Position numbers and translations under genes: made by a program. Positions 8,880 through 36,530 of a stretch of DNA of 64,000 nt are shown here, piece by piece (within the stretch, counting starts at the first letter, position 1; every line of letters begins with the position of its first letter). Source of the stretch: Sediminicoccus rosea (GTDB taxonomy: Bacteria; Pseudomonadota; Alphaproteobacteria; Acetobacterales; Acetobacteraceae); the NCBI RefSeq assembly GCF_033547095.1, contig NZ_CP137852.1, positions 2,597,501 through 2,661,500 of the forward strand. The letters run 5' to 3'. The notes below the pieces were generated by a model that was not told the DNA's origin, ran no database searches, and saw only the letters and a list, made by a program, of their open reading frames with translations.

Positions 8880-8966
8880 CCCCCTCCGCTGACCTGTTCG
8901 AACCGACGGCCGCTGGGGCCGCACAGCCGACAATTGGTCATCTGCTGGTGGGAAAGGGAACCCGAC

Positions 8967-9434
8967 ATGGACTCTCTCGTCCGACTGGGGATGGACTCGG
9001 AAATGCTCCCGAGCGACGCCCAGAACACGACTCATGCCTCGGCCGGTTCGGTCAGTGAGACGAAGGATTATTTCGTCGAGCGCAACGGCGTCCGCTACGC
9101 CGGCACGCATCTGATCATCGACCTCTGGGGTGCCACGAACCTCGATGATCCCGGCCATATCGACGCCGTGCTGCGCGAGGCCGCGATCGCCTCGGGTGCC
9201 ACGATCCTGCACGGGCATTTCCATCACTTCTCGCCCAATGGCGGCGTGAGCGGCGTGCTGGTGTTGGCCGAGAGCCACGTCTCGATCCACACCTGGCCCG
9301 AGCGGGACTATGCGGCGCTGGACATCTTCGTCTGCGGCGATTGCGACCCCTACAAGGCCATCCCGCTGCTGAAGACCGGCTTCCTGCCGGAGCGCGTGCA
9401 GCTCGCCGAGCACAAGCGCGGCATGGTGGGCTGA
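8967..9434 (+). CDS. speD: S-adenosylmethionine decarboxylase proenzyme
   Basis: The 155-residue product is a short prokaryotic SpeD. The self-processing site is in LAESHVSIHTWPE: cleavage between Glu102 and Ser103 would convert the serine to the pyruvoyl cofactor. His108 and the cysteine in FVCGDCDPYKA match the other active-site positions. The enzyme makes decarboxylated SAM, the aminopropyl donor for spermidine. The frame is open upstream, but ATG 8967 follows a GGAAAGGG ribosome site and leaves an N-terminal extension of about 30 residues before the conserved domain; ATG 8991 is an alternative. speE follows, with a hairpin between them that could set a different level for each gene. Confidence 0.95.
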   Translation: MDSLVRLGMDSEMLPSDAQNTTHASAGSVSETKDYFVERNGVRYAGTHLIIDLWGATNLDDPGHIDAVLREAAIASGATILHGHFHHFSPNGGVSGVLVLAESHVSIHTWPERDYAALDIFVCGDCDPYKAIPLLKTGFLPERVQLAEHKRGMVG

Positions 9435-9459
9435 CCGCCCCCGAGCGATGCAATGAACG

Positions 9460-9491
9460 GGGCCGGGCGGCAACGTCCGGCCCTTCTTCTT
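9460..9491 (+). terminator. Hairpin with T-rich tail between speD and speE
   Basis: GGGCCGG (9460-9466) pairs with CCGGCCC (9477-9483) over a ten-base loop and is followed by TTCTTCTT. It looks like an intrinsic terminator or attenuator, and speE starts only 33 bases beyond it, so partial read-through is likely. Confidence 0.55.
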
Positions 9492-9523
9492 GGATGGGCT
9501 TCCTGGCCTGAAGGATTCCGACG

Positions 9524-10387: not shown

Positions 10388-10397
10388 GGCAGGTTTC

Positions 10398-10414
10398 CCG
10401 GAACCTGGTTCCGG
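10398..10414. repeat. Perfect inverted repeat downstream of speE
   Basis: CCGGAACC, one T, then GGTTCCGG form a perfect 17-base palindrome ten bases after the speE stop. With a small loop it could act as a terminator stem, though no T-run follows; it could equally be a protein-binding site. Confidence 0.5.
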
Positions 10415-10501
10415 CCGCCGCCGCGTCGCATGCGCGTGTTCGCGGCGATGCCTCCTCTCGCCACCGGTTGGCGCGGCCCGCGGGCTGCCTCGGCCGGGTG
10501 T

Positions 10502-10520
10502 CCCCCCTCATGACGGGGGG
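10502..10520. repeat. C6/G6 hairpin in the speE-CMD intergenic region
   Basis: Six C (10502-10507) face six G (10515-10520) across TCATGAC. The convergent genes on either side make a bidirectional terminator plausible. Apart from this and the repeat at 10398, I see nothing in the 205-base gap. Confidence 0.4.
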
Positions 10521-10592
10521 CGTCGCGACGGGGCCTCGCCTGGGGTTGCGCCCCGCTCACGTCATGCCCGGCGGCGGCCGGTTTCTCCGGCG

Positions 10593-10988
10593 CTATAGCG
10601 CGCCCTGTTCCTTCAGCACCTGCTCGGCCATCCGCAGCGCGTCGATCGAGGCGGGAAAACCGCAATAGGCGACGGCGTGGGTGAAGACCTCGCTGATCTC
10701 CTCGGCTGTGCAGCCATTGTTCAGCGCCGCCACCAGGTGGATTCGCAGTTCATGCGGGTGGTTCAGCGCGCAGAGCATGGCGAGCGTGATCAGGCTGCGC
10801 TGCTTGCGGTCCAGCACTGGGCGCGTCCAGAGCGTGGCATAGGCCATCTCCTCCGAGAGCGCGCGGATGGCGGCGTTGAAGGGTGTGGTGGTGGCGTCCC
10901 GCGCCTCGGTATAGGGCGCGCCCAGGATCTCGCGCATTTCCTGGCGGCCGCGCTGGCGCAGCGCCGCGTGGGCTTCGGTCTCGTTCAT
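10593..10988 (-). CDS. Carboxymuconolactone decarboxylase family protein
   Basis: The 131-residue product has the length and fold signature of PcaC-like proteins. The stretch LITLAMLCALNHPHELRIHL, then NNGCTAEEISEVFTHAVAYC and GFPASIDALRMAEQVLKE, follows the CMD domain. The CxxC pair of AhpD-type peroxidase relatives is absent, so a decarboxylase/isomerase-like role is likelier than peroxidase. PcaC acts in protocatechuate degradation, but no other pca gene is nearby, and stand-alone CMD proteins often have different substrates. It is convergent with speE. The exact reaction is unknown. Confidence 0.85.
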   Translation of the reverse strand: MNETEAHAALRQRGRQEMREILGAPYTEARDATTTPFNAAIRALSEEMAYATLWTRPVLDRKQRSLITLAMLCALNHPHELRIHLVAALNNGCTAEEISEVFTHAVAYCGFPASIDALRMAEQVLKEQGAL

Positions 10989-11037
10989 TCGGCTGGTCCT
11001 CCCTGATGGCGGGAGGGTAGGCCGGTTCAGCCGGCCG

Positions 11038-11277
11038 TCAAAACGGCTCGGCCGTGTCCCGGCGGAGCAGGCGGCGGAAGGCGCCCGCGGAGCGGTCCTG
11101 CCCGGTCACCTTGTCGGCCAGCGCATCGAGCCAGCCGGAGAACCAGGCCTTCCCCCAATCGCCCGTCTGCGCCATCGGGTTCTCCAGCACAGAGGCGCCG
11201 GCCGCGAAGGCTTGGCGGCCGGCGGCATAGGCGTCATCGCTCACGAAATCGTCGTTCGGGTCCACGTCCTCGGGCAT
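11038..11277 (-). CDS. Ribosome modulation factor-like small protein
   Basis: The 79-residue product contains DAYAAGRQAFAAGASVLENP followed by a short variable stretch and WGKAWFSGWLDALADKV. The spacing of the Gly-Arg, Gly-x-Ser, Asn-Pro and Trp-x-x-Gly-Trp elements resembles RMF of E. coli, which dimerises ribosomes in stationary phase. It is longer than RMF (55 residues) at both ends, with an acidic N-terminus and a basic C-terminus. It is divergent from uvrB, with 69 bases between the two starts. RMF/CrpP-type is the family inference; 100S formation by this protein is not shown. Confidence 0.7.
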   Translation of the reverse strand: MPEDVDPNDDFVSDDAYAAGRQAFAAGASVLENPMAQTGDWGKAWFSGWLDALADKVTGQDRSAGAFRRLLRRDTAEPF

Positions 11278-11334
11278 CGGGGCATCCTGTGATGGCCCGC
11301 GGCATATGGCATCGCAGGGGCGGGGGCGCCATCC

Positions 11335-11340
11335 TATATT
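11335..11340 (+). promoter_or_regulatory. Candidate -10 element for a leaderless uvrB transcript
   Basis: TATATT ends six bases before the uvrB ATG, so transcription would start at or next to the start codon. No good -35 element is seen 17 bases upstream, and no Shine-Dalgarno sequence precedes the ATG, which fits a leaderless message. Confidence 0.4.
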
Positions 11341-11346
11341 GCGGGG

Positions 11347-13545
<2,199 letters not shown>

Positions 13546-13557
13546 CCCCGGCGAGCC

Positions 13558-13776
13558 CTATCGGGCCGTGCCCCTGGGCTTCGCCGCGGCCTCGCCCTCG
13601 GCGCGCGTCGCGTGCTGGTCGAGGAAGCGCTCGAAGTCGCGTGGGATGATGCGGAACTCGCGCCCGACATCGATGGCGCGCAGGTCGCCCTGCCGGATCC
13701 ATTGGCGCACCGTCGCCTCGCCCACCTGCGCGAGCTCGGCCACCTCGCGGACCGTCATGAATTTCCGTGTGAGCAT
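13558..13776 (-). CDS. Excisionase/MerR-like helix-turn-helix small DNA-binding protein
   Basis: The 72-residue product has a winged helix-turn-helix of the excisionase (HTH_17) type: FMTVREVAELAQVGEATVRQ, then WIRQGDLRAIDVGREFRI, followed by IIPRDFERFLDQH. This family reads short DNA sites in phage excisionases and in many stand-alone chromosomal regulators. The start ATG 13776 follows AGGGA. It lies 12 bases beyond uvrB in the opposite direction and is divergent from the universal stress gene, so it might regulate that gene; this is position-based inference only. No integrase or phage gene is nearby. Confidence 0.8.
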   Translation of the reverse strand: MLTRKFMTVREVAELAQVGEATVRQWIRQGDLRAIDVGREFRIIPRDFERFLDQHATRAEGEAAAKPRGTAR

Positions 13777-13838
13777 GTCATCCCTGCCTCACCGCGCCTG
13801 ACCGTGGTTGACGATATTCGAGCATCGTTGAAGCCGGT

Positions 13839-13852
13839 TTGACAAAGATCAA
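13839..13852 (+). promoter_or_regulatory. FNR/FixK-type binding site upstream of the universal stress gene
   Basis: TTGAC-AAAG-ATCAA differs at one base from the FNR/FixK consensus TTGAT-N4-ATCAA. It lies about 130 bases upstream of the universal stress protein start. Universal stress genes are common targets of oxygen-sensing Crp/Fnr regulators. The regulator gene itself is not in this window. Confidence 0.65.
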
Positions 13853-13982
13853 TGCCGCCCGCCCGCGCTGGCGCCAGTTTGATGGCGTTGGGTCCATCCC
13901 GCCGCAATGTGGCGGGGCCCACGCCAACCGGGCGGCGGCCGGAAGCCGGCGGCCCGCCCACAACAGGCCGGGAGATTGCCTC

Positions 13983-14765
13983 ATGTCGCTCACCACCATC
14001 CTCTGCCAGGTCGAGCCCGGCGATGCCGCGATGCTGGACGCAGCCGTGGCCACGCCCTTCGCCCTGGCCGAGGCGCATGGCGCGCAGCTGACCGCGCTGG
14101 TCTTCGGGGTCGAGGCCGAACACACCATCGCCGCCGAGGAGCAGGCGGCCGCGATGGTGCGCACCGCCGCCGAACGCCGCGGCATCCCCTGCGAGACCCG
14201 GTCGCGCAGCAGCTTCGCCTATGGCGTGGGCGATGTCTTCGCCGACCATCTGCGCGTGTCGGATCTCGGCGTGGTCGTCACCCGTGCCGGAGGCGGGGCG
14301 GTGCAGCGCCTGATGCTGGGCGCCGCGATCTTCGACAGCGGCCGCCCGGTGCTGGTGGTGCAGCAGCAGCACCCGCTCGAGGTCATGCCCGCGCGCGTCG
14401 TGATCGCCTGGGACGCGACGCCGGCTTGCGTGCGGGCCGTGCATGGGGCCATGCCCTTCATCCGCCGCGCCGCGGAGACGCTGGTCGTCACCGTGACGGA
14501 TGACAAGGAGCTGCGCGCCGGCCAATCGGGCATCGAGCTGACGCATCTGCTGGCGCGCCACGGCGCGACGGCGCGCTTCACCGCGGTGCCGCGCGCCGGG
14601 GGTGGCGTGCCCGAGGCCGTGCTCGGCGCGGCGCCGGGCGGGCCGGGCCAGATGCTCGTCATGGGCGCCGTCCGGCATGCGCCGCTGCACAACATCGTCT
14701 TCGGCAGCGCGACGCAGGAGCTGTTCGATCGTGGCCCGCGCCTGCCCACCCTGGTCGCTGCCTGA
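13983..14765 (+). CDS. Universal stress protein, tandem-domain type
   Basis: The 260-residue product has two UspA-like halves. The first is LTTILCQVEPGDAAMLDAAV, with the helix following HGAQLTALVFGVEAE. The second is RVVIAWDATPACVRAVHGAM, ending LVMGAVRHAPLHNIVFGSAT, which resembles the C-terminal nucleotide-binding GxxxxxxxxxxGS region of ATP-binding Usp proteins. Such proteins support survival in stasis or oxygen limitation. The frame is open upstream, but ATG 13983 follows GGGAG and begins the conserved strand. The FNR-type box at 13839-13852 points to control by oxygen. Confidence 0.87.
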   Translation: MSLTTILCQVEPGDAAMLDAAVATPFALAEAHGAQLTALVFGVEAEHTIAAEEQAAAMVRTAAERRGIPCETRSRSSFAYGVGDVFADHLRVSDLGVVVTRAGGGAVQRLMLGAAIFDSGRPVLVVQQQHPLEVMPARVVIAWDATPACVRAVHGAMPFIRRAAETLVVTVTDDKELRAGQSGIELTHLLARHGATARFTAVPRAGGGVPEAVLGAAPGGPGQMLVMGAVRHAPLHNIVFGSATQELFDRGPRLPTLVAA

Positions 14766-14799
14766 GGAAGGCCGCGCAGCCGGGCCGGGGAGCGCTTCG

Positions 14800-16278
14800 C
14801 TACAATTGCTCCTCGACCGGCAGGCGGCGCACCAGCCCGGCCAGCAGCCGCCGCCAGATTCCGGCGCCGGGCTCGCGCGGGGCGAGGGCCGGGCCGTCTC
14901 GCCAGACCAACTCGCCCCCCTCCAGCATCACCTGCCAACTCATCGCGGGGTCGGCCAGGCGGGCATGCTCGGCGGCGATGCCCGCGGCGATGCCGGCGTC
15001 GCGCACGAAGCAGCCCATCTCGGTGTTGAGCGCGGCCGAGCGGGGATCGAGATTGAAGGAACCGACGAAGCCGAGCCGCCCATCCACCGCGAAGGCCTTG
15101 GTGTGCAGCGCGGCGCCGCGTGAGCCGAGCAGGCTCGGCGGCGTGTCGCGCCATTCGGGCTTGAGCTCGAAGAGCGTGGCGCCCATGGCCAGCAATGCGC
15201 GGCGATACTTGGCATAGCCGCCATGCACCGCCACCACGTCCGTCGCCGCCAGGGAATTGGTGATGACGGAGACACGCACGCCCCGCGCGCGCAATTCGCC
15301 CAGCAGCGCCATGCCGGCCCGGCCGGGCACGAAATAGGGCGAGATGAGCAGCGCCTCCTGCCGCGCTGCGCGCAGCGCATCGGCGATCTCGGCGGCGATG
15401 CCGCCCGCCGCGCGCGCCGCCTTGCGCGCCCGGAGGCCACGCTTCGCCTTTTCCGGCGGATCGGCCACGACCTGGATGGCATCGGGCGGCAGCAGCGTCA
15501 GCGCGCGGTCGAGCTGCGCGCGCAGCGGCGCCTCGGCCCCGGCCAGGAGGGCATCGGCCGCCGGGCGGTCATCCGCCCCGGCGAGGACGGCGCGCAGCGC
15601 GGGCAGGCCGCCCGCGCGCTCGGCCGTGGCGGCGACGAGGCGTGCGGGGCGGGCCAGCGGGCTCGTCCAGTAGCGCTGGAAGACCCGCGTGGCCTGGTGC
15701 GCGGCCGGGCCGGCCAGCGCCAGGTCCAGGTCGCGGAAGCGGATGCTGCCGCGGCCCGCCAGGCCGAAATAGGCATCGCCCAGGTTGCGCCCACCCACCA
15801 CGGCCAGCCGGTCATCGGCGATCCAGGACTTGTTGTGCATGCGCCGGTTCAGGTGCCGCCCGCCGAAGGCCAGCTCCAGCAGGAAGCCGAGGCGCCCGAA
15901 GCGCCGCCAGCGCGTGCCGTTGAACAGTCGCACCTCGATCAGCGGGTGCGCGTCGAGCGCGGCGAGCGTGCGCTCCCGGCCCAGCGCATAGACGTCATCC
16001 AGCAGCAGGCGGACCTTCACGCCGCGATCGGCCGCCGCCAGCACCTCGCAGGCCAGAAGCTGGCCCGTCACATCGCCGCGCCACATGTAGTATTGCAGGT
16101 CCAGGCTGCGCCCGGCTGCGCGCGCGCTCGCAACGCGCAGCGCGAAGGCGGCGGCGGCCTCGGGCAGCAGGGCCACGCCGCTGGTGGCCGGCGGGGCCAT
16201 GCCCAGCGCCGCGGCCACGTCCTGCTCGAGGCCGGTCGGGGCGCGGCGGACGGGCGCGAAGGGCGGTCTGGTCATCAT
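14800..16278 (-). CDS. Phospholipase D-family protein (cardiolipin synthase-like)
   Basis: The 492-residue product has both PLD catalytic motifs: HNKSWIADDRLAVVGGRN in the first half and HTKAFAVDGRLGFVGSFN in the second, each fitting HxKx4D. It lacks the N-terminal membrane helices of ClsA and resembles the ClsC/YmdC group. The reaction is probably phosphatidyl transfer or phospholipid hydrolysis at the membrane. The start is uncertain: AGGAG runs straight into two adjacent ATG codons (16278 and 16275). It is divergent from the TctC-type gene. A second, membrane-anchored Cls lies at 18281, so the window encodes two enzymes of this fold. Confidence 0.88.
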   Translation of the reverse strand: MMTRPPFAPVRRAPTGLEQDVAAALGMAPPATSGVALLPEAAAAFALRVASARAAGRSLDLQYYMWRGDVTGQLLACEVLAAADRGVKVRLLLDDVYALGRERTLAALDAHPLIEVRLFNGTRWRRFGRLGFLLELAFGGRHLNRRMHNKSWIADDRLAVVGGRNLGDAYFGLAGRGSIRFRDLDLALAGPAAHQATRVFQRYWTSPLARPARLVAATAERAGGLPALRAVLAGADDRPAADALLAGAEAPLRAQLDRALTLLPPDAIQVVADPPEKAKRGLRARKAARAAGGIAAEIADALRAARQEALLISPYFVPGRAGMALLGELRARGVRVSVITNSLAATDVVAVHGGYAKYRRALLAMGATLFELKPEWRDTPPSLLGSRGAALHTKAFAVDGRLGFVGSFNLDPRSAALNTEMGCFVRDAGIAAGIAAEHARLADPAMSWQVMLEGGELVWRDGPALAPREPGAGIWRRLLAGLVRRLPVEEQL

Positions 16279-19693: not shown

Positions 19694-19779
19694 GGGCGCT
19701 CGCCGGTTGCGAGGCAGGCTGCGAGCGGGGCCCTGGCATGGGCCTTGCGGGGCAGCGGGCACCCTGAGTGGAGCCGCCC

Positions 19780-21006
19780 ATGCCCTTCGATTCCGTCCCC
19801 GCCGCCACCGCCTCCGCCGAAACGCGGCCGCTCAGCGTGCTCTACGTCCTCTCCTCCTTCCCGGTGCTGTCCGAGACCTTCGTCAGCAACGAGATCCGCG
19901 CCATGCGCGCGCTCGGCCACAAGATCGTGCCGCTCACCATCCGCGACCATCACGGCCCCTGCCAGCCGGAGGACGAGGCGCTGAAGCCCGGCATCCAGCG
20001 GCTGGAGGAGCTGCCGCGCGTCACCGCCATGCTGCGCGCCGTGATGGGCCCCGCCCGGCTGCGCGCGGCGATGCGCTTCATCCGGACGCAGCAGGGCCTG
20101 CCGCGCCGCTCGCTGCTGCTCGCCGCAGCCCGGGTGGCGCTGGCCGCGCGGCGGCATGGCTGCACCCATGTCCACGCGCATTTCGCCCATGCGGCGACGG
20201 CCACCGCCATTGCCGGCGCGCGCCTGGCGGGCTGCACCGTCTCCTTCATCGGGCATGGCTTCGAGGTCTATGGCACGCCCGCCGACCTGCCGCTGAAGCT
20301 CGCCAGTGCCGACCTCGCCGTCGCCACCTGCTTCGACATGCGGGACGACATGCTCGCCATGGCGCCGGGGGCGCGCGTGGTGGTGGTGCCCTGCGGCATC
20401 GATCCCGCCCGCTTCCGCCCGCGCTCCGGCGCCTCCAATGGCCGGCTGCTCGCCATCGGCCGCCTCGCGCCGCAGAAGGGGTATGAGCTGCTGCTCGATG
20501 CCCTGGCCGCGCTGCCGCCCATGGCGCGCCCCTGCATCGACGCGGTGGGGGAGGGCGCGCTGCGCCCGGTGCTGGAAGCGAAGATCGAGGCGCTGGGCCT
20601 TTGGCCCTGGATGCGCCTGCTGGGCGCGCGCCCGAGCGGCTGGATCGCCGAGGAGGGGCCGCGCTACCAGGGTTTCGTCGCCCCCTACGTGATCTGCGCC
20701 GATGGCGACCGCGACACCGGCCCCATCGTGCTGAAGGAGGCGATGGCCATGGGCCTGCCTGTCCTCGCCTCGGCCCTGATGGGCATGAAGGAGACAGTGG
20801 CCGATGTCGGCGGAAGGCTGATCCTGCCGGGCGACCGCCGTGCCCTGACCGATGGCCTGGGCTGGATCGCCGGCCTCTCGGCGGCGGAGCGCGCTGCCAT
20901 CGGCCGCGCCGGGCGCGCGCATATCGAGGCGGGGTTCAGCCTGGCATCCCAGGCGCGGCAGCTGGGCGCGCTCTTCGCCGGCCTGCAGGCCCGCCCCCAT
21001 GCTTGA
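19780..21006 (+). CDS. GT4-family glycosyltransferase
   Basis: The 408-residue product has the GT-B layout: an N-terminal half with VLYVLSSFPVLSETFVSNEI, VHAHFAHAATATAIAGARLA and SFIGHGFEVYG, and a C-terminal half with LLAIGRLAPQKGYELLLDAL and GPIVLKEAMAMGLPVLASAL, the donor-binding E-x7-E region. It would transfer a sugar from a nucleotide donor to a lipid or glycan acceptor on the cytoplasmic face. ATG 19780 is preceded by GGAG; a GTG at 19768 is possible. It overlaps the next GT4 gene by eight bases, opening a four-gene glycan locus. Confidence 0.9.
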   Translation: MPFDSVPAATASAETRPLSVLYVLSSFPVLSETFVSNEIRAMRALGHKIVPLTIRDHHGPCQPEDEALKPGIQRLEELPRVTAMLRAVMGPARLRAAMRFIRTQQGLPRRSLLLAAARVALAARRHGCTHVHAHFAHAATATAIAGARLAGCTVSFIGHGFEVYGTPADLPLKLASADLAVATCFDMRDDMLAMAPGARVVVVPCGIDPARFRPRSGASNGRLLAIGRLAPQKGYELLLDALAALPPMARPCIDAVGEGALRPVLEAKIEALGLWPWMRLLGARPSGWIAEEGPRYQGFVAPYVICADGDRDTGPIVLKEAMAMGLPVLASALMGMKETVADVGGRLILPGDRRALTDGLGWIAGLSAAERAAIGRAGRAHIEAGFSLASQARQLGALFAGLQARPHA

Positions 21007-22174
21007 GCGCCGCACCGACATCCTGATCTGGGTCGCGGGCAAGCTCGACAAGCGCGGCTCCTTCGAGGACTACCTGCTGCGCCTGGGGCGCGGCCTGAAG
21101 ACGGCCGGTCTCAGCACGCATCTCGTCGCCGGTCCGCCCTGGGATGCGGGGCTGCGGCGGGACCTCGCGGCGCTGGGCCTTGGCCTGACGGAACTGGGCG
21201 AAGGTGAGTTGCGCTCTGCCTGGCGCGCGGCCGGCATCCTGGCCCGCACGCGGCCGCGCCTCGTGCATTACCATTTCGGCTCGCCCAGCTCGAAGCTCGC
21301 CGCGCTGGCCGCGGTCTCGGGCGTGCCGCGCTTCGTCTTCACGGATCACGGCTCGCGCACGCAGGTCGAGGCGGGGGGCGCTGGTCTCGCCGCCGCCAAG
21401 CGCTGGATGCGGCGGGCGCGCGCCTCTCTCGTGGACCTCTATCTGCCCGTCTCGAACGAGGTGGCGGGGCATCTCCGGCAGGAGATCGGCCTGCCGCCCG
21501 CCCGGCTGCACCGGCTCATGAACGGCGTGGACCTCGCGCGCTACCGTCCCGCGGGTGCTGAGGAGCGCATGGCCCTGCGCCAGCGCCTGCTGGGGCTGGG
21601 CGGGGCGGAGCCCGTGCTGCTCTATGCCGGGCAGCTCACCGCCGAGAAGGGCGTGGAGGATCTGCTCGCCATCCAGCCCGCGCTGCTCCGCGCCTTTCCG
21701 GGCCTCACCATCGCCTGGGCCGGGGACGGCCCGCTGCGCGGCGCGGTGGAGGCCGCATCCGGCCAGGGCGTGCGCGTGCTGGGCCGTCGCGGCGACATGC
21801 CGGAACTGCTGCGCGCGGTGGATCTCGTCGTCGCGCCCTCGCGCTGGCGGGAGGCCTTCTCGCTCATCCTGGCCGAGGCCGCGGCCTCGGGCCTGCCCGC
21901 CATAGCCTCGCGCATCGGCGGCATCCCGGAGGTGGTGGCGAACCAGGTGACGGGCGAGCTGGTGCCGCCTGGCGAGCCGGCGGCGCTGCTCGCCTCGCTC
22001 TCGGGGCTGATCGAGCAGCCCGCGCGCCGCATCGCCATGGGGCAGGCGGCACGCCGCCGCGCCGAGGCGCTGTTCGACCTCGACGGCATGATCGCCGCCA
22101 CCCTCCGCCACTATGCGGCACTGCTGCCGCTGCCCACCGCCTCGCTCACGCCCGCCCTGGAGTTCCGCTCATGA
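20999..22174 (+). CDS. GT4-family glycosyltransferase
   Basis: The 391-residue product is a second GT-B enzyme. VHYHFGSPSSKLAALAAVSG and FVFTDHGSRTQVEAG lie in the acceptor half. YAGQLTAEKGVEDLLAIQPA and AVDLVVAPSRWREAFSLILA, with EAAASGLPAIASRIGGIPEV, form the donor half. It starts inside the end of the preceding GT4 gene and overlaps the dioxygenase gene at ATGA. The two GT4 proteins differ clearly in sequence, so they probably add different sugars rather than being a recent duplication. Confidence 0.9.
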   Translation: MLERRTDILIWVAGKLDKRGSFEDYLLRLGRGLKTAGLSTHLVAGPPWDAGLRRDLAALGLGLTELGEGELRSAWRAAGILARTRPRLVHYHFGSPSSKLAALAAVSGVPRFVFTDHGSRTQVEAGGAGLAAAKRWMRRARASLVDLYLPVSNEVAGHLRQEIGLPPARLHRLMNGVDLARYRPAGAEERMALRQRLLGLGGAEPVLLYAGQLTAEKGVEDLLAIQPALLRAFPGLTIAWAGDGPLRGAVEAASGQGVRVLGRRGDMPELLRAVDLVVAPSRWREAFSLILAEAAASGLPAIASRIGGIPEVVANQVTGELVPPGEPAALLASLSGLIEQPARRIAMGQAARRRAEALFDLDGMIAATLRHYAALLPLPTASLTPALEFRS

Positions 22175-23142
22175 CCGTCACCGAGATCACCGCCGCGCTG
22201 GAGCGCGACGGCATCGCGCCGCTGCCCCGGCTGATCGCACCCGAGGCGCTGGCCGGCCTGCAGGCGGCCTTCAGCGGCGCCCTGCGGCGGCCGAGCTTCA
22301 ACACCTGGATCGGCTTCGAGCAGAACGAGAAATGGCGCCTGCTGGTCGAGAACCTGCTGGCGCTGCACCCGGCCTGCCTCGAGCTCGCGCTGCATCCGCT
22401 GGTGGCCGGCGCGGTGCGCGAATATGTCGGCCCCGAGGTGGCGCTGACCGAGGCGCGCGGCTGGCGCACCATCCGCACCACGCGCAACTTCCATGGCTGG
22501 CACGCCGATGCCTGGCACGCGCCCGAGGTGACGACGGCGCCGCGCGAGGTGAAGCTCGCGGTCTATCTGAGCGATGTGGAGAGCGGGCATTTCGCCTATC
22601 TCGCCGGCACGCACCGCCAACGCGGCGCCGCCCGCCACTGGGGCCCGGCGGATGTGGCGCCGCTGATGCACCGGGAGCGCGCGATGCGCGGCCCGGCCGG
22701 CACCGCCTTCCTCTTCGACACGGCGGGCGTGCATCGGCAGACCACGCCCTGCCTCTCGCCGCGCGACGTGATGTTCTTCAACTTCCATGACCCTGCCGTG
22801 CCGATCCAGGCCGAGGATGTGGCGCATGGCCGCTACCAGCCGCTGCTGCTGAACGCCGGCTACCTGCCGCCGCTGACCGCCGAGCAGGCGGCGATCCTGG
22901 GCTTTGGCCGTGCCCGCGCCCAGCCCGAAGCGGGCATGGTGGGCCGCCCCGCGCTGCGGCGCTATCCCTGGCTGCATGACGCCATGGCGGCGGGCCTGTG
23001 GGCGCGGCTCGAATGGCAGGAGGTGGCGCGCATGGCGCGGCAGGGCCGGCGCTTCGCCGCGCGCCGCCTGGCGCGGCTGATCCCCGGCGTGGCGCGCCCG
23101 AGCTCTGGCGCCGCGCGGCCCGCGAAGGAGGCTCACTCGTGA
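22171..23142 (+). CDS. Phytanoyl-CoA dioxygenase (PhyH)-family protein
   Basis: The 323-residue product has the iron-binding HxD in FHGWHADAWHAP (residues about 109-120) and the distal histidine in FDTAGVHRQTTP, about 80 residues later. An arginine for 2-oxoglutarate should lie just after, near SPRD. The fold is the non-haem Fe(II)/2-oxoglutarate oxygenase family, whose bacterial members hydroxylate lipids, sugars or small metabolites. Its place between three glycosyltransferases suggests that it modifies a lipid or glycan precursor made by this locus. The C-terminal 100 residues are Arg-rich and atypical. Confidence 0.85.
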   Translation: MTVTEITAALERDGIAPLPRLIAPEALAGLQAAFSGALRRPSFNTWIGFEQNEKWRLLVENLLALHPACLELALHPLVAGAVREYVGPEVALTEARGWRTIRTTRNFHGWHADAWHAPEVTTAPREVKLAVYLSDVESGHFAYLAGTHRQRGAARHWGPADVAPLMHRERAMRGPAGTAFLFDTAGVHRQTTPCLSPRDVMFFNFHDPAVPIQAEDVAHGRYQPLLLNAGYLPPLTAEQAAILGFGRARAQPEAGMVGRPALRRYPWLHDAMAAGLWARLEWQEVARMARQGRRFAARRLARLIPGVARPSSGAARPAKEAHS

Positions 23143-24119
23143 GCGCGCCCCGTCTTTCCGTCATCATCCCCACGCGCAACTGCCTGGCATGGCTGCCCCG
23201 CGCCATGGCGAGCGCGCTGGCCGTGCCGGTCGAGGGCATCGAGGTCATCATCGTGGATGATGGCTCGACCGACGGCACCGCGAATTTCCTGGCCCATGCC
23301 GCAGCCTCGGGCCTGCCCATCCGCGTGCTGCGCCGCACGGGCGGCGAGGGGGCTGCGGCGGCGCGCAATGCCGGCCTCGCCATCGCGCGGGCGCCCGTGG
23401 TGGGCTTCCTCGACGCCGATGACATCTGGCAGCCCGATCGCATCGCCGAACGGCTCGCCTGGCATGAGGCGCATCCCGAGACCGCGCTGAGCTTCGGCGA
23501 ATACGAGACGCTCTATGCCGACAACCGCCGCGAGCCGCGGCTGATCGGCTACATGCCGCGCTTCGCCGCCGCCGTCACGCCGCTGGACGAGCCCTGGCGG
23601 GACGAGATCGGCTGGCTGGGCCCGGCCGGCGCCGGGCTGATCTATGGGGAGAATCCGGTCTGCACCTCGGTCGTCCTCGCCTCGCGCGCGGCGGTGGAGG
23701 CGGTGGGCGGCTTCGATGTCTCGCTCGGCCAGGCGGAGGACTGGGACCTCTGGATCCGCCTCGCGCTGCACGGCCCGGTCGCCTATGCGCCGCGCTCGCA
23801 GGGGCTGCACATGCATCGCGCCGACTCGCTGAGCAGCGAGGTGCGCGCGCGCTGCCTTGCCGTCGCGACGGTGCTGGACCGCTACGGCCCGGCGATCCGC
23901 GCGCGTGATGCGGGCGCCTTCCGCTGCAGCCGCGCCTTCGTGGCCGAGGCGCGCGCCGAGATGGCGGAGGCCGAGGGGCGGCGCCTCGCGCATCTGGCCT
24001 GGCAGGCCAAGGCGCTGCTCTGGCAGCCGAGCCGCCGCCGGGCGCGCTCGGCCGCACGCGCGTTGCTGCGGGGGCTGCGGCCGCGCATGCCGGCGCCGCT
24101 CATGGCACGGGCGGCGTGA
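23139..24119 (+). CDS. GT2-family glycosyltransferase
   Basis: The 326-residue product has a GT-A domain: RLSVIIPTRNCLAWLPRAMA, IEVIIVDDGSTDGTANFLA, the DxD-type FLDADDIWQPDRIAERLAW and the catalytic-loop QAEDWDLWIRLAL. The start is a GTG overlapping the previous stop (GTGA), supported by AAGGAGG eight bases upstream. A basic, Arg-rich C-terminus may bind membrane. It closes the GT4-GT4-PhyH-GT2 locus. No flippase, polymerase or sugar-nucleotide genes are present, so the final product cannot be named. Confidence 0.92.
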   Translation: MSAPRLSVIIPTRNCLAWLPRAMASALAVPVEGIEVIIVDDGSTDGTANFLAHAAASGLPIRVLRRTGGEGAAAARNAGLAIARAPVVGFLDADDIWQPDRIAERLAWHEAHPETALSFGEYETLYADNRREPRLIGYMPRFAAAVTPLDEPWRDEIGWLGPAGAGLIYGENPVCTSVVLASRAAVEAVGGFDVSLGQAEDWDLWIRLALHGPVAYAPRSQGLHMHRADSLSSEVRARCLAVATVLDRYGPAIRARDAGAFRCSRAFVAEARAEMAEAEGRRLAHLAWQAKALLWQPSRRRARSAARALLRGLRPRMPAPLMARAA

Positions 24120-29476: not shown

Positions 29477-30475
29477 TCACGCTCCGCCGGAGGCCGGCTC
29501 GGTGCCCGCCGAATGCCCCGCCACGGGCTTGTGCGGATGTGGCACCATGAGCTTCTTCGGGGCGATGAAAAGGTACATCGTCAGCACATAGGGCGCGGTG
29601 AAGGACGGCACGCCGGACGGTGCCACGATGATGTCGAGCGCGCCCTGGACGAACACCGTCACCACGGTCGCGAGCGCGGCGTAGAGCGCGACGCGCGGCG
29701 AGGGCCGCAGGAAGATCACGCCGACCGCCAATGCGGTGAGCACCGGGCTGAAGCCGTACAGCCCCTGCCGGACCAGGGCGGGGTCGGCGGCCATCGCGAC
29801 GGAGACGATGATGGCGATGACCGACCCGGCCACCACAGCGATGCCGGCGGCGACCGAGGCAATGAAGATGCCGGCCAGGATGATCGCCCCACTGACCGCA
29901 CTGCCAAGCAGATAGACCTGCCCGATATTGCGGAAGAAGATTTCGACCAGCTCGATCCCCTGCGGGATGACCATCGCGTGCTGCGTCGTGGCCGTCGGCA
30001 GGCGCGGCGAATCGCCGATCACGTCGAGCCCGCCGAAGGAATACGCGCCGGCGACCATCAGCCATCCGGTCAGGACGAAGGGGCCGGTCGAACCTGGCAC
30101 GCCGAACACCCTGGTGACCGTGGCGCTGAAGGCCGCGGTGAAGACCGTGCTGGCCGCGGCGCCCACCACGACATAGACCCAGAGCTGCGGCGACGCGGCG
30201 ATGAAGGTCGGCAGGGCCGCGCCGACGAGGATGCCGTTGAAGCCGTACAGCCCCTGTTCGATCGAACCCTCGTCGAGGTCCAGCACCTGCGCCGTCAGCG
30301 TCGCGACGACGATGCCGACCGCGGCCCCGATGGTCGTCGCCCAGACCCCGGAGACATAGGACGCGTAGGCCATGGCGACGAAGAAGATCGCCCCGGTCAG
30401 GGCGTTCTCCATGAAGAAGACCTGGCTGGTTCCGCGCAGGCAGACCGTCAGGAAATTGCTCTTCGTCTGCGTCAT
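29477..30475 (-). CDS. Urea transporter (UT family)
   Basis: The 332-residue product is an integral membrane protein with two homologous halves. The first has EQGLYGFNGILVGAALPTF and the second has RQGLYGFSPVLTALAVGVI followed by GVPSFTAPYVLTMYLFIAPK, the paired signature of the UT urea channel family. It passes urea down its gradient. Its position facing the NikR-linked transporter fits a urea-use locus, since urease needs nickel, although no urease gene is in the window. The N-terminal MTQTKSNFLTVCLRGTSQVF is the short cytoplasmic end. A C-terminal His/Pro-rich tail is present. Confidence 0.9.
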   Translation of the reverse strand: MTQTKSNFLTVCLRGTSQVFFMENALTGAIFFVAMAYASYVSGVWATTIGAAVGIVVATLTAQVLDLDEGSIEQGLYGFNGILVGAALPTFIAASPQLWVYVVVGAAASTVFTAAFSATVTRVFGVPGSTGPFVLTGWLMVAGAYSFGGLDVIGDSPRLPTATTQHAMVIPQGIELVEIFFRNIGQVYLLGSAVSGAIILAGIFIASVAAGIAVVAGSVIAIIVSVAMAADPALVRQGLYGFSPVLTALAVGVIFLRPSPRVALYAALATVVTVFVQGALDIIVAPSGVPSFTAPYVLTMYLFIAPKKLMVPHPHKPVAGHSAGTEPASGGA

Positions 30476-31289: not shown

Positions 31290-31718
31290 ATGTCTTCCAT
31301 GCTCTATGTCAGCAACGCTGCGGTGGTCGCTTCGGAGCAGTTTGATGGCGAACTCGTTGTCATCCAGTTCGATACAGGCAGGTATTTCAGCCTCAGCGGG
31401 ATGGCCATGCCGGCGTGGCAGCTCCTGCAGTCGCCGGTCACGCGCGATGCGATGCTCTTCGCTCTGTCCCAGGCGGCCGGCGATACCGCGCCCGAACCTG
31501 CCGAACTGGCGTCGCAGCTCGATGCGCTGATTGAACAGCTCGTCGCCGAAGCCCTGCTCATCGAAGCCGAGGCACCCGGCATCGCCGCGGTCATCGAGCC
31601 CTTCAACTACGCCGCTCCCCGCGTGGATATCTACTCTGACCTCGCTGACCTCGTATCGCTCGACCCGATCCATGATGTGGACGCGATGATGGGCTGGCCA
31701 CGCACGGGCGCGGCGTGA
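31290..31718 (+). CDS. PqqD-family peptide recognition protein (HPr-kinase-associated type)
   Basis: The 142-residue product opens with a PqqD/RRE-like domain: LYVSNAAVVASEQFDGELVV then IQFDTGRYFSLSGMAMPAWQ and helices to about residue 95. A conserved-looking tail follows: FNYAAPRVDIYSDLADLVSL then DPIHDVDAMMGWP. PqqD-like domains bind leader peptides and present them to modifying enzymes. ATG 31290 places the start just before the first strand; the frame is open back to a GTG at 31200, and no strong ribosome site separates them. It overlaps the kinase-like gene (GTGA). This is the first gene of an unusual five-gene unit. Confidence 0.8.
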   Translation: MSSMLYVSNAAVVASEQFDGELVVIQFDTGRYFSLSGMAMPAWQLLQSPVTRDAMLFALSQAAGDTAPEPAELASQLDALIEQLVAEALLIEAEAPGIAAVIEPFNYAAPRVDIYSDLADLVSLDPIHDVDAMMGWPRTGAA

Positions 31719-32770
31719 ACAGCACGGTCTTGCCGACCAGCGTCGCGGATCTGGTGCCCGCCCATCGCCTCGACGAATTCATTGCGGCGACCCCACCCCG
31801 CCTGTTCGGGATCGGCCCGGTCTCCATCGCCCTGCATGCCTCCGATGCCCGCCTGGCCGCGTTGCTCGGCGCAGCACTCGCGCATGCGGCCTGCGACACG
31901 CCGCGGCCCTGCCATCTGCGCGTCGCTGCGATTGACACCGGGGCGATCGGCTGGCCACGACCGCCCGGGGTCCCGGGCACGGAACATCTTCGCCCGCCGA
32001 TGGACGAGGTAAATCTGCGTGCCGGCAGGCTCATCCAGGCGATCCACCAGGCAGGATCCTGTACCTGGGAGAGCTATGACGCGGGCACCCGGACGGGCCT
32101 GCTGCTGACCGCCGATGCCGCATTGGTCGCCCCCTGGGAATGGGCATCGCCGCTCAAGCGGCACATCGCCTGGGCCACGCGCGAGGAGCCCTTCGGGCTG
32201 CTGCACGGTGCGGTGATCGGAGATGCGGCCGGTGGGGTCATGCTGGCCGGCGGATCGGGGGTGGGAAAATCCACCACGGCGGCGGCCGCGCTGCAGGCGG
32301 GGCTGTCGAGCGCCGGCGATGACCTCACGCTGCTTTCCCTCGACGCGGATAGCGGGGTTGTGGCCCATGCCGCCTTTGACGCGGTGAAGTTGAGCGACGC
32401 CACCTTGCGCCTCATCGGCGCCGCGCCACCGCCCGGCGGCGTGGCGAGTGGCGCGGGCATCGCGAAGCACATCCTGCCGCTCAGCACGCTCGGCGCGGGT
32501 CGGCTCGCGCCGCGCGTGCCCCTTCGCGCGATCCTGCTGCCGCGCCTGGCCGGCGGCCCGCGGAGTGCGATCCGCCCGGCCGTGATGGCGGCGGCGCTGC
32601 GTGCCCTCGGCCCGGTGTCGGGCTTCGTCATGCGGGTGACGCCGGAATCCAGTTTTGCCCTGGCCGCCCGCATGGTGCGGGATCTGCCCTGTTTCGCGCT
32701 CGACATCGGCGAGGATCCGGCGGAAGCCGCGCGCTGCATCGCCGCCTTCCTGGAAGCCCGGCGACCATGA
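31715..32770 (+). CDS. HPr kinase-like protein (HprK-related)
   Basis: The 351-residue product has a poorly conserved N-terminal half and a C-terminal HprK-like kinase core. The core has the P-loop MLAGGSGVGKSTTAAAALQA (Lys185) and the second acidic motif SSAGDDLTLL (Asp202/Asp203), which corresponds to the metal-binding aspartates of HprK. The PTS-associated HprK signature region is absent and no HPr or PTS gene is nearby, so the substrate is not HPr. Homologues in some lasso-peptide clusters phosphorylate the precursor peptide. The GTG start overlaps the PqqD-like stop; the next gene overlaps at ATGA. Confidence 0.8.
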   Translation: MNSTVLPTSVADLVPAHRLDEFIAATPPRLFGIGPVSIALHASDARLAALLGAALAHAACDTPRPCHLRVAAIDTGAIGWPRPPGVPGTEHLRPPMDEVNLRAGRLIQAIHQAGSCTWESYDAGTRTGLLLTADAALVAPWEWASPLKRHIAWATREEPFGLLHGAVIGDAAGGVMLAGGSGVGKSTTAAAALQAGLSSAGDDLTLLSLDADSGVVAHAAFDAVKLSDATLRLIGAAPPPGGVASGAGIAKHILPLSTLGAGRLAPRVPLRAILLPRLAGGPRSAIRPAVMAAALRALGPVSGFVMRVTPESSFALAARMVRDLPCFALDIGEDPAEAARCIAAFLEARRP

Positions 32771-33465
32771 GCCGCCCGCGCATCTCCGCCATCGTCACGG
32801 CGCTGAACTTTGAACGCTTCATCGCCGACGGGATCCGCTCGATCCAGGCGCAGAATGTGCCGATCGAGGAGATTCTGGTGGTGGACAGCCGCTCCGAGGA
32901 CGGCACCGCGCGGATCATCGCGGCGATGGCCGCCGCTGATCCCCGCATTCGCCTGCTCGAAGCCGAACGGCACAGCCCAGCGCGGTCACGCAATGTCGGC
33001 CTCGCCGCCGCAACTGGTGATGTGATCGCCATGCTGGATGGCGATGACACCTGGCCGCGCGGCAAGCTCGCCGCCCAGCTCGCGCTGCTCTCGGAGCCAG
33101 GGGTCGCCGTGGTGTCGGGGCTGACCGGCTTTTGCGACGCGATTGACCCCACAACGCAGGCGCCGCCGCCGGGAGCACGGGTGGAGACGGTCGCCGCGGT
33201 GAATGTCGGCGCCTGCCTCTATCGCGCCACGGTCTTCGCATCGCTCGGCCCCTTCGACGAAGGCTATCGCTATGCGGATGACTGGGATCTCATGCTGCGC
33301 CTGCGCGATGCCGGCCTGCGCGACATCAAGCTGCCCGAGGTCATGCTGTGGCACCGCCGCTACCCCGGATCGCTGCTGACGACGCCCGACCCCCACCGCA
33401 AGCAGGAGCTGGCGGTCGCGGTCGGGCGCTCGCTCGCGCGGCGCCGTGCGAGCCGGCTGGCATGA
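32767..33465 (+). CDS. GT2-family glycosyltransferase
   Basis: The 232-residue product is a compact GT-A enzyme: RISAIVTALNFERFIADGIR, ILVVDSRSEDGTARIIAAMA, the metal-binding AMLDGDDTWPRGKLAAQLAL and the catalytic-loop YADDWDLMLRLRDAG. It has no membrane segment and is short for a polysaccharide synthase, so it may act on a protein or a small acceptor. It overlaps both neighbours by four bases. It differs from the next GT2 gene but shares its size and layout, so the pair may have arisen by an old duplication. Confidence 0.88.
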   Translation: MSRPRISAIVTALNFERFIADGIRSIQAQNVPIEEILVVDSRSEDGTARIIAAMAAADPRIRLLEAERHSPARSRNVGLAAATGDVIAMLDGDDTWPRGKLAAQLALLSEPGVAVVSGLTGFCDAIDPTTQAPPPGARVETVAAVNVGACLYRATVFASLGPFDEGYRYADDWDLMLRLRDAGLRDIKLPEVMLWHRRYPGSLLTTPDPHRKQELAVAVGRSLARRRASRLA

Positions 33466-34163
33466 CGCGGATCTCGGTTGTCATCCCGGCCTGGCAGGCC
33501 GCCGGCACCATTGCCGAGACGCTGGCCAGCGTCGCCGCCCAGACGCGTCCCGCCGACGAGGTCATCATCGTGGATGATGGATCCACCGACGGCACGGCCG
33601 AGGTGGCGCGGGCGGCGCTACCCTCCGCGCGCATCATCCGGCATGCCCATGGCGGTGCTGCGGCGGCGCTCAATGCCGGGTTTGCCGCGGCGGAGGGCGA
33701 TCTTCTGGCCCCGCTGGATGCTGACGATCTCTGGCTTCCGGGCAAGCTCGCGGCGCAGGAGGCAGCGCTCATGCGCGCGCCGCCTCTGGCCGGCGTGGGC
33801 GGGCTCATGGAGACTTTTTTCTGCGCCAGCATGCCCCCGCAGGCCCGCGCCGCAGTGCGCCTGCCGGTGGGACCTTCGCCCTGGCTGCTCTCCGGCGCCC
33901 TCCTGCTGCGACGCGCTGCCTATGACGCGATCGGCCCACATGACGAGGCGTTGCGCGCCGGCCAGTCCATTGACTGGATGCACCGGGCCCGGCTGGCAGG
34001 GCTTGCCTTCGAGGTGCTGCCGGAGGTCGTGTTGCGCCGGCGGATCCGCCAGGGCTCGCTTTCCTCGCGTGCCGGCGGCGCCGACGCAGCCTTCCTCGCC
34101 ATGGCCCGTCGCGCCATTGAACGGCGGCGTGCTGCCGCCCCGCCGCCGAAGGAGGAGCCCTGA
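33462..34163 (+). CDS. GT2-family glycosyltransferase
   Basis: The 233-residue product has RISVVIPAWQAAGTIAETLA, EVIIVDDGSTDGTAEVARAA and the donor-site APLDADDLWLPGKLAAQEAA. The catalytic-loop equivalent SIDWMHRARLAG replaces the usual EDWDLW with an Asp-Trp pair only, so activity should be tested rather than assumed. It ends in a Pro-rich segment. It overlaps the neighbouring GT2 (ATGA) and the nucleotidyltransferase (TGATG). The substrate is unknown; context suggests that it works with the PqqD/HprK-like pair. Confidence 0.87.
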   Translation: MTRISVVIPAWQAAGTIAETLASVAAQTRPADEVIIVDDGSTDGTAEVARAALPSARIIRHAHGGAAAALNAGFAAAEGDLLAPLDADDLWLPGKLAAQEAALMRAPPLAGVGGLMETFFCASMPPQARAAVRLPVGPSPWLLSGALLLRRAAYDAIGPHDEALRAGQSIDWMHRARLAGLAFEVLPEVVLRRRIRQGSLSSRAGGADAAFLAMARRAIERRRAAAPPPKEEP

Positions 34164-35581
34164 TGGAGCTCGTCGCGCAGCACTATTGGCCGGACCGGGC
34201 CGATACATTGCTGCTCATGACGGCGCTGCACCCGGATGAGGAGCGCGCGCGAACGGCTTGGCGTGCCTGGGAGGAGATGCAGCGCTTCGAGACGGCGAAC
34301 TGGGCAAAGCTTCGCATCTTTCCTGTGGTCGCACGCCGCCTGCCGCAACTTGGCCTCGACAGTGAGTTGCTGCCGAGGCTGGCCGGCGTGCGCCGCTTCC
34401 TCTGGACCAAGACGCGTCTCCTGCACCGCACCGTGGCGCCCCTGCTGGAGGGCCTGCGCGCGGCTGGCATCACGCCGATGCTGACCAAGGGCGCAGCACG
34501 CGTCGCGCTTGATCCGGCGGCGGCGGCCGAGCGCTACAGCCATGACGTTGACGTCCTGGTCCCCACCGCTGCCTGGGAGGCGGCGGTGGATGTGATGTAC
34601 GCGCATGGCATGGAAGCCGCCCAGAAACTCACGCGGGAACAGGTGCTGCAAATCCGTCACCGCTTCCACGGGATAGGCTTCGGCAAAGCCGAGGCGCAGC
34701 TCGATCTCCACTTCTTCGCGCTCAAGCGCAACCGCTGCGAGGGCGATGATGACGGTTTGTGGGCGCGCGCCCAGGCTGGAAGCTTCGTCGGCGTGCCGGT
34801 GCTGGCACCGAGCGCCGAGGACCGGCTCGTGATGGCGCTCGCGCATGGGCTGCTGGTCAGCCCCGGGCGGGTGACGGATTGGGTGTTTGACGCGGTCGCA
34901 GCGCTCTCCGTTTCTGGCTTCGACTGGAAGCACGTGCAGCGGGAGTTGATCCGGCGCGGGCTCTCCGCCTTCGGCATGGTCGGGCTCCGCTTCCTGCGTG
35001 AGCGCCTGGCCCAGCCGGTGCCCACGGCACTCATCGCGGCGCTGCGGGCGGATACCTCCCAGGTCTTCGCCGAGGAGTTCAACTGCCTGCACGAGACATA
35101 TTGGGCCCGCACGGAACGCGAGCACGCCCTGCTGACCCTTGCCGATTACGAGCGTGCGCGCCGCGCGGCCATGGCCTTGCCGGCGGGCGCGCCGCAGGGC
35201 AGGCGCGGCACGCCCTGGGCCGATGCGGCCCTCGACCCTCCAACGCGCGCCCGGGCGGGCGACGCGGTGATCCCGGTGCCACCCTGGATCAGCCGGGGAG
35301 ATCGGCCGAAGCTCGACCTCACGGTCCAGTTGCCGCAGCCGCAGAAAGGGCAGCGTCTGATGCTGGAATTGACGTGCTTTGCCGCGCACCAGACCAGCCT
35401 GCAGCAGCGCTTCGTCGCGGTCGCCGAGGGCCGCGCCGCCTTGCGCTTCGTCCTGCCTGCCGACTTCATGGCGATGCGCCGGCCGGACCGGCTCGCATTG
35501 CGGGCATGGGGCGTGGATGCGACCAGCGGCGCAACGCGCGTGCCCGTTCTCGCGGCCCGCCACCGATGGCGCTCTTCGTGA
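34163..35581 (+). CDS. Nucleotidyltransferase family protein (NTP_transf_5-like) with C-terminal beta domain
   Basis: The 472-residue product has a helical N-terminus, then a nucleotidyltransferase core: PMLTKGAARVALD and the acidic YSHDVDVLVPTAAWEAA (DxD), followed by AQLDLHF, which supplies the third acidic position. This arrangement matches the NTP_transf_5 group seen beside HPr-kinase-like genes. The last 110 residues (LDLTVQLPQPQKGQRLMLEL onward) look like a separate beta-sandwich domain, possibly for binding the substrate. It is the fifth and last gene of the coupled unit; an adenylyl- or guanylyl-transfer reaction is inferred. Confidence 0.8.
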   Translation: MELVAQHYWPDRADTLLLMTALHPDEERARTAWRAWEEMQRFETANWAKLRIFPVVARRLPQLGLDSELLPRLAGVRRFLWTKTRLLHRTVAPLLEGLRAAGITPMLTKGAARVALDPAAAAERYSHDVDVLVPTAAWEAAVDVMYAHGMEAAQKLTREQVLQIRHRFHGIGFGKAEAQLDLHFFALKRNRCEGDDDGLWARAQAGSFVGVPVLAPSAEDRLVMALAHGLLVSPGRVTDWVFDAVAALSVSGFDWKHVQRELIRRGLSAFGMVGLRFLRERLAQPVPTALIAALRADTSQVFAEEFNCLHETYWARTEREHALLTLADYERARRAAMALPAGAPQGRRGTPWADAALDPPTRARAGDAVIPVPPWISRGDRPKLDLTVQLPQPQKGQRLMLELTCFAAHQTSLQQRFVAVAEGRAALRFVLPADFMAMRRPDRLALRAWGVDATSGATRVPVLAARHRWRSS

Positions 35582-36041: not shown

Positions 36042-36530
36042 ATGCGAAGCCAAGCCCAGACTGAAGCCGCGGTGCTCCTTCCCATGGAGGTGATCCGCAA
36101 TTTCGCGGATCGAGCGCCCATGGACCTCGATGCGATGGCCCGCGCCCTCGGTGTGGAGGTGCGGCGCGGCCAAAACCTGGCTGCGAATGTCTCAGGGAAG
36201 ATCGAACGGCGCGGGGCTGGCTTCGTGGCGACGATCAATGCTGCCCACTCGGCCAAGCGCCAGCGCTCCACCCTGGCGCACGAGCTGGCCCATCGCATTT
36301 TTCACAGCGACCTGATCGGTGATGGCATCTCCGATGATGGGCTGTATCGAAGCAGCGTATCCGACGACATTGAGCGCCAGGCAAATGCCTTCGCTGCCGG
36401 GCGGCTTGTGCCCGCGCGGTTGGTCCGGAAGCTCTACCGTGAGGGGATGAAGGACACGCCGAGCATCGCGGAGCGATTCGATGTCTCCGACGATGCGGCC
36501 AGGGTGCGGCTGCGCGAGCTTTTTGGGTAG
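36042..36530 (+). CDS. ImmA/IrrE-type metallopeptidase (COG2856)
   Basis: The 162-residue product carries the zinc motif HELAH in QRSTLAHELAHRIFHSDLIG and the third-ligand helix ERQANAFAAGRLVPARLVRK, then ends in a helix-turn-helix-like SIAERFDVSDDAARVRLREL. ImmA-type proteases cleave a partner repressor in mobile elements, and relatives act in stress responses. The usual upstream Xre-type repressor gene is missing, as is any toxin. GGGAGGGGA directly before ATG 36042 supports the start. It lies in the island-like segment, consistent with descent from a mobile element. Confidence 0.88.
   Translation: MRSQAQTEAAVLLPMEVIRNFADRAPMDLDAMARALGVEVRRGQNLAANVSGKIERRGAGFVATINAAHSAKRQRSTLAHELAHRIFHSDLIGDGISDDGLYRSSVSDDIERQANAFAAGRLVPARLVRKLYREGMKDTPSIAERFDVSDDAARVRLRELFG

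Follow-up and report, generated by a model that had tools for sequence, protein, structure and literature searches.

Two kinds of published gene cluster join a discrete recognition element (RRE) for ribosomally synthesized and post-translationally modified peptides (RiPPs) with an HPr-kinase homologue and a nucleotidyltransferase. In the lasso peptide clusters of paeninodin and pseudomycoidin (PMC8498205, in the parts available), where the RRE is the B1 protein, phosphorylation is followed by glycosylation of the phosphate, and the pseudomycoidin nucleotidyltransferase puts one or two hexoses on that phosphate in vivo. The linear polyphosphorylated peptides (LPPs) of Bacillota (PMC13381572, Nat Commun 2026, likewise in the parts available) form the second kind, and HprK-like enzymes phosphorylate both paeninodin and LppA (PMC8498205, PMC13381572); neither source, in its available parts, describes nucleotidyl transfer itself by an NTP_transf_5-type enzyme. 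Here we describe a five-gene cassette of Sediminicoccus rosea, located in a window of 64,000 nucleotides (positions 2597501-2661500) on contig NZ_CP137852.1 (C1) of the 5.1-Mb genome, which by analogy appears related in logic to the LPP and paeninodin-type clusters. The logic of RRE, HprK and NTP transferase is already known from the published lasso peptide and LPP work; what we found described nowhere in the open-access literature is the pair of family 2 glycosyltransferases (GT2) and, above all, a near-invariant peptide fused in cis to the RRE.

The five genes at positions 31290-35581 of the window are real, and lie on one strand with successive overlaps of four, four, four and one bases (GTGA, ATGA, ATGA and TGATG), in agreement with an earlier note made on this DNA from its letters alone. 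The cassette and the two segments of interest in its first protein are as follows.

31290-31718, + strand: PqqD-like RRE protein, 142 aa, with a C-terminal peptide extension.
31608-31637, + strand: leader-like segment YAAPRVDIYS (YxxPxV) of this protein, residues 107-116, assigned by its match to the published RRE-binding motif and a predicted strand at residues 111-115.
31638-31703, + strand: near-invariant tail peptide DLADLVSLDPIHDVDAMMGWPR, residues 117-138, assigned by identity and invariant residues.
31715-32770, + strand: HprK/PEPCK-type kinase-like protein, 351 aa, GTG start, assigned by invariant residues, AlphaFold2 model, Foldseek and sequence profile.
32767-33465, + strand: GT2a, soluble glycosyltransferase, 232 aa, LDGDD motif (PF00535, 82.2 bits).
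33462-34163, + strand: GT2b, soluble glycosyltransferase, 233 aa, LDADD motif (PF00535, 103.2 bits).
34163-35581, + strand: NTP_transf_5 nucleotidyltransferase-family protein, 472 aa (PF14907, 79.3 bits), with the KGAA, HDVDVLV and LDLH motifs kept.

The PqqD-like protein scores 28.4 bits against a Pfam cut-off of 23.4, and the NTP_transf_5 protein, at 79 bits against 31.2, is the sole PF14907 match of the genome at E <= 0.1. PADLOC matched nothing among the five proteins, and a promoter and terminator scan and the composition were uninformative.

The PqqD open reading frame (ORF) continues for 45-50 residues after the RRE, and conservation covers the greater part of this extension. It consists of a linker, the leader-like segment and a peptide with the consensus D[LM]xxL(x)3DP[IV]H[DE]...GWP. 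The RRE fold is best matched by TbiB1 and TfuB1; the relation to lasso B1 proteins has E values of 7.4e-18 for TbiB1 and 1.4e-7 for LppB (9x8z). The window segment Y107-A-A-P110-R-V112 agrees with the RRE-binding leader motif [Y/W]xxPx[L/V/I/F/A] (PMC13381572, in part), and an aromatic-xxPx-aliphatic motif occurs in 12 of 19 aligned rows, eight with Tyr and four with Phe. In the tail, D125, H128, G135, W136 and P137 are invariant in all 17 aligned sequences, with which the tail of the cyanobacterium Crinalium agrees. Mean pairwise identity over 16 full-tail rows is 0.55 for residues 117-138 versus 0.28 for the RRE; between the window and its closest relative, locus L014, 21 of 22 tail residues are identical, compared to 49 of 92 over residues 1-92 and just 2 of the 10 leader-like positions. 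No other part of the protein is as conserved as the tail. In the predicted model, residues 101-120 are ordered (block pLDDT 97 and 88) and include a strand at 111-115, and residues 121-142 are loose. None of the NCBIfam families matched the 17 tail members at E 10, and a comparison with PDB sequences gave a single match at E 0.32. Altogether, the computed comparisons show a chain in which a lasso-B1-type RRE is followed first by the leader-like segment and then, at the C terminus, by the near-invariant peptide.

In the genomes searched, the tail was seen on one clade of RREs only. Forty tail-less PqqD proteins stop 0-8 residues past the matched RRE stretch, and in a tree built on the RRE only, the full-tail and short-tail forms fall on one side of a branch with support 91/84, recovered in 89% of bootstrap trees, on an alignment of few columns that leaves many inner forks open. 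Across 23 chosen genomes and a draw of 386, all matches to the tail profile at E <= 2e-6 fall on PqqD ORFs. No stand-alone tail peptide was recognised in these genomes, where a limited number of candidates was scored per genome and rare ones could escape. Six weaker rows appeared in the 23-genome scan (E 0.096-0.95). We set aside a match in Methylorubrum extorquens (E 9) with no PqqD-like ORF at the site, one in genome G324 (E 0.006) where, read by eye, the alternative frame resembles a biotin-carrier protein, and phage matches, which reached E 6 only.

Possession of the extension goes together with an adjoining GT2 gene. In stretches of 2.2-3.4 kb, GT2 adjoins all 12 extension-bearing PqqD genes (nine full, three short) versus 1 of 40 tail-less ones, with a Fisher p of 6e-11 that is too small since the rows are partly related (three share one genus and three the family label f39). 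A stretch was available for 12 of the 14 loci found through PqqD, which make up the first group, and for 40 of the tail-less matches, which make up the second. An HprK-like gene lies beside 10 of 12 versus 19 of 40 (100-394 versus 22-82 bits), and NTP_transf_5 near 3 of 12 versus 6 of 40. The tail-bearing RRE and GT2 form the most constant pair, because the f39 loci have short tails and other loci are without the kinase or NTP_transf_5.

The cassette is conserved and patchily distributed. The NTP_transf_5 protein as query matched 5 of 120 relatives at E <= 1e-5, its own genome included, and none of the 20 same-genus genomes listed. A scan of genome contigs gave one close relative (67%), L014, with the five genes in the same order in a metagenome-assembled genome labelled Roseomonas mucosa. 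Among 386 genomes of the class, 6 encode full-tail PqqD forms, as do 7 among 397 of the phylum, with the source genome counted in both; the PqqD profile further found the short-tail form in three class genomes, and gave 3 of 250 genomes in a draw from the order (own genome included) and 1 of 35 in another class. We examined 21 loci (the window, L014, L020-L023, L081-L094 and L120), 18 with full and three with short tails, in stretches of 3.7-30 kb, some of which stop at contig ends, so that gene absences are local. HprK is present in 18, GT2 in 20 and NTP_transf_5 in 17, all four gene kinds stand together in 14, and the one-strand order PqqD-HprK-GT2(1-3)-NTP occurs in 10, with L120 counted by its annotation. 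Six loci are the window itself or entered through the NTP_transf_5 query, where the presence of this gene follows by construction; among the 14 entering through PqqD alone (L081-L094), HprK is found in 12, GT2 in 14 and NTP_transf_5 in 10. Sets of this kind recur across 10 family labels and in one cyanobacterium. Thus, as computed here, homologous loci join the RRE, an HprK/PEPCK protein with kinase-type residues, one to three GT2s and NTP_transf_5, not all of them everywhere.

Homology to L014 starts and stops with the five genes: blastn of window positions 18001-45000 aligned 31323-35493 only, leaving both flanks unaligned and no sixth gene common to the two loci. Because homology ends at both cassette borders, the unit probably moved as a block. 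All-versus-all matching at E <= 1e-6, restricted to six loci outside L081-L094 and to ORFs of 50 aa or more, returned only proteins of the module, other glycosyltransferases, antisense shadows of these and two weak, isolated matches between flanking ORFs (L014-L020 and L020-L021); within three further pairs or groups, loci were compared as DNA. The earlier note had described a gene set free of lasso cyclase and protease; such a set does recur, though not every locus is complete, and neither enzyme is among the five. Neither of the two outcomes that the note named as refuting came about, since the genes co-occur and the kinase-like protein is distinct from the genome's own PTS HprK. The note had also suggested looking for a conserved sixth gene, and none is kept in cis with the closest relative; its statement that an obvious precursor is absent overlooked the peptide-like end that PqqD itself carries.

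Individual loci show further features. L086, L088 and L089 (f39), on a divergent branch, encode a GT2, a short-tail PqqD ending in LDPPLP and NTP_transf_5 in two copies, of which one shows loss or change of its DxD or third-Asp motif. Two genomes hold paired tail-PqqD loci, L083 with L084 (G246) and L081 with L087 (G291); L083 has only PqqD and GT2s among the four gene kinds, and in L087 the kinase and GT2 are separated by two proteins of ~360 aa that match no Pfam family. L120 lies at 5896-15357 on the Crinalium epipsammum plasmid NC_019735.1, typed as mobilizable, with the annotated order PqqD-nucleotidyltransferase-HPr kinase-FkbM-GT; besides the FkbM methyltransferase, it carries a TPR protein and a second nucleotidyltransferase. 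In L092-L094, two to three small, similar, secreted-looking proteins, with a signal-like start and a DRNLFGN or DRNLYGR end, separate the cassette from an ABC-transporter-type ATPase gene. As candidate trans precursors they were set aside without a search, having been noticed only at these loci of a single genus.

The kinase-like protein scores below the curated cut-off for Hpr_kinase_C (18.9 of 33.3 bits in Pfam). Nevertheless, all 18 aligned relatives keep H164, G179, G184, K185, D202 and D203, a set that includes the P-loop Lys and Asp pair picked out by the earlier note. Its AlphaFold2 model has a pLDDT of 90 and best matches PEPCK in Foldseek (E 7.8e-9), and a sequence-profile search, in which HPr kinases rank first, aligned residues 162-213 with HprK 1jb1 at E 8.7e-6. 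This subfamily is present at E < 1e-75 in 16 of the 18 G-numbered genomes with a full or short tail, a count partly by construction as the profile was built from these same proteins; G078 and G396 gave weak matches only.

Compared with the LPP loci, the cassette likewise has a discrete lasso-B1-related RRE and an HprK-like kinase with the invariant H/K/DD residues, though below curated cut-offs, and is without a macrolactam cyclase; its PF14907 protein may correspond to the LPP NTP transferase LppN. It is likewise patchy, probably horizontally spread and near polysaccharide genes. It adds one to three soluble GT2s and the near-invariant peptide fused to the RRE, an extension with no counterpart in the available part of the LPP description (PMC13381572). 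LPP precursors are separate, with a YxxPxVLxHQxIxFETxxS motif and variable C termini, whereas the tail differs from this motif and hardly varies. LPP loci also have an SpI-type leader peptidase and an MsbA-like exporter; neither of these was found among the five proteins or in the block shared with L014, nor did this block hold a sixth ORF as separate LPP-type precursor, all three without genome-wide search. In contrast to the paeninodin and pseudomycoidin clusters (PMC8498205, in part), with which it shares the discrete RRE, HPr-kinase homologue and nucleotidyltransferase, the operon adds GT2s and has no B2 protease, cyclase or lasso precursor. The B2 leader peptidase PF13471 has no match genome-wide at E <= 0.01, and no macrolactam synthetase (Asn synthase-like) is found among the five proteins, the search having stayed with these. 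In the computed assignments, none of the five is a lasso cyclase, protease or exporter. PqqD-like and HprK-related proteins also make up HprK-related kinase A (TIGR04352) and SynChlorMet (TIGR04248 and TIGR04249; ScmD, ScmC) systems, but the window proteins score far below these cut-offs (35 of 200, 18.8 of 100 and 18.4 of 125 bits). Open-access literature searched for an RRE-precursor fusion, the tail motif, the HprK-related kinase and PF14907 yielded nothing.

The explanation we place first, tentatively and at somewhat less than even probability, is a self-contained, horizontally spread module in which RRE and peptide form one chain and the tail is the substrate, as an RRE-precursor fusion. 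Residues 107-115 would occupy the leader groove of their own RRE and hold out the flexible peptide 117-138 in cis to the four enzymes. Most likely the kinase would phosphorylate, NTP_transf_5 would then attach a sugar (or nucleotidyl) to the phosphate, like the lasso enzyme acting on pseudomycoidin, and the GT2s would add or extend sugars. By analogy with paeninodin, pseudomycoidin and LPP (PMC8498205, PMC13381572), we infer that the RRE presents its own tail and so guides a phospho-glyco modification.

Several points weigh against this proposal, which is weakest at the acceptor. Ser, Thr and Tyr are not conserved anywhere in the tail, and the described kinases use Ser: in the available parts of the sources, the paeninodin kinase targets the C-terminal Ser (PMC8498205), and LppK phosphorylates Ser only, S3T and S3Y not being phosphorylated (PMC13381572). 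A tail substrate would therefore need Asp, His or Trp as acceptor. Deletion of the NTP transferase gene was without effect in the LPP heterologous host (same source, in part). The three f39 loci keep RRE, GT2 and NTP_transf_5 and stop at DPPLP without H..GWP. The leader motif, found in only 12 of the 19 rows and with Phe in four of these, is missing in L014, and Foldseek with the PqqD model gave nothing below E 0.001; HPr kinases are absent among the 50 Foldseek matches listed for the kinase model. The kinase is missing in the stretches read of L022 (a 3.7-kb contig), L083 and L089, and NTP_transf_5 in those of L083, L084, L087 and L090, so that either may be optional. A protease that would free a product is not among the five proteins. 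RiPP cores usually vary, and this tail hardly does.

Owing to the acceptor problem and the lack of effect of the LPP NTP transferase in its heterologous host, we give nearly equal weight to a rival that we regard as a serious though unproven candidate. Here the tail is a docking tag that recruits GT2, kinase and NTP_transf_5 to the RRE, and the RRE presents a separate peptide or protein whose gene lies elsewhere in the genome. Invariant D, H, G, W and P residues without a conserved Ser/Thr/Tyr acceptor look like a binding motif, the f39 loci retain the enzymes with half of the tail, and discrete RREs act as scaffolds recruiting modifying enzymes (PMC7470986, in part). However, the window and L014 share no such peptide in or beside the operon, ORFs below 50 aa in other loci lying outside the comparison, and an in-cis leader-like segment should compete with a trans leader.

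It is improbable, in our view, that a glycan or lipid-linked sugar is the substrate of the enzymes; in that case a sugar phosphate or activated sugar would come from the kinase and NTP_transf_5, the GT2s would polymerise, and PqqD would organise the complex. Sugar-related genes do surround several loci: GT-B type glycosyltransferases near L081, L083, L086 and L087, two large GT2 proteins in L014, and a small glycan-type cluster ~7 kb upstream in the window; LPP loci also sit within capsule loci (PMC13381572, in part). A lasso-type RRE with a leader-like segment is, however, a peptide-binding device, the conserved unit contains no flippase or polymerase, and L083 has the tail-PqqD and GT2s alone of the four gene kinds. 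The window neighbours are:

19768-24116, + strand: GT4, GT4, PhyH-type dioxygenase and GT2, adjoining (the small glycan-type cluster).
29480-30475, - strand: urea transporter (PF03253, 264 bits), upstream of the cassette.
36042-36530, + strand: IrrE/M78-type peptidase domain protein (62.7 bits), downstream of the cassette and outside the block shared with L014.

A 42-base stretch of the GT2 gene in the upstream cluster has 93% DNA identity to GT2b.

A lasso cluster remnant that lost cyclase, protease and precursor is very improbable: its RRE is closest to lasso B1 proteins and its kinase and NTP enzyme types are common to paeninodin clusters (PMC8498205, in part), but intact ORFs, kept active-site residues and recurrence in 10 family labels and a cyanobacterium indicate a conserved state, not decay. 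That the kinase-like gene is a phosphotransferase system (PTS) HPr kinase, the possibility against which the earlier note had set its interpretation, we reject for practical purposes as next to negligible: its Hpr_kinase_C similarity is weak, a stronger HprK (44.4 bits) lies at C1:4426587, followed by ORFs read by eye as RapZ, EIIA, HPr and PtsI, and 8 of 8 same-genus genomes searched are without the subfamily at E <= 1e-10. Read by eye, the ORFs of this second locus (L024, G000:C1 4420000-4434000) make up an apparently complete regulatory PTS locus.

Returning to the tail as substrate, a bolder and on balance unlikely version is a RiPP-like class in Pseudomonadota and Cyanobacteria with the precursor permanently fused to its RRE and a peptide that hardly varies, on which the kinase, GT2s and NTP_transf_5 would build a phospho-glyco modification at the Asp, His or Trp of DP[IV]H[DE]..GWP. 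The outcome would perhaps be a single conserved product, of the kind of pyrroloquinoline quinone and mycofactocin, rather than a variable antibiotic.

With the tail, an orphan set of RRE, HprK, GT2 and NTP_transf_5 genes gains a concrete and testable part, a short peptide with invariant residues. Should the tail prove to be modified, a single chain would hold both the recognition element and the substrate of a RiPP-like system, and the acceptor chemistry would be unusual; as a docking tag, it would reveal how glycosyltransferases are brought together by discrete RREs. Under either reading, the tail motif is a handle for finding more of these cassettes.

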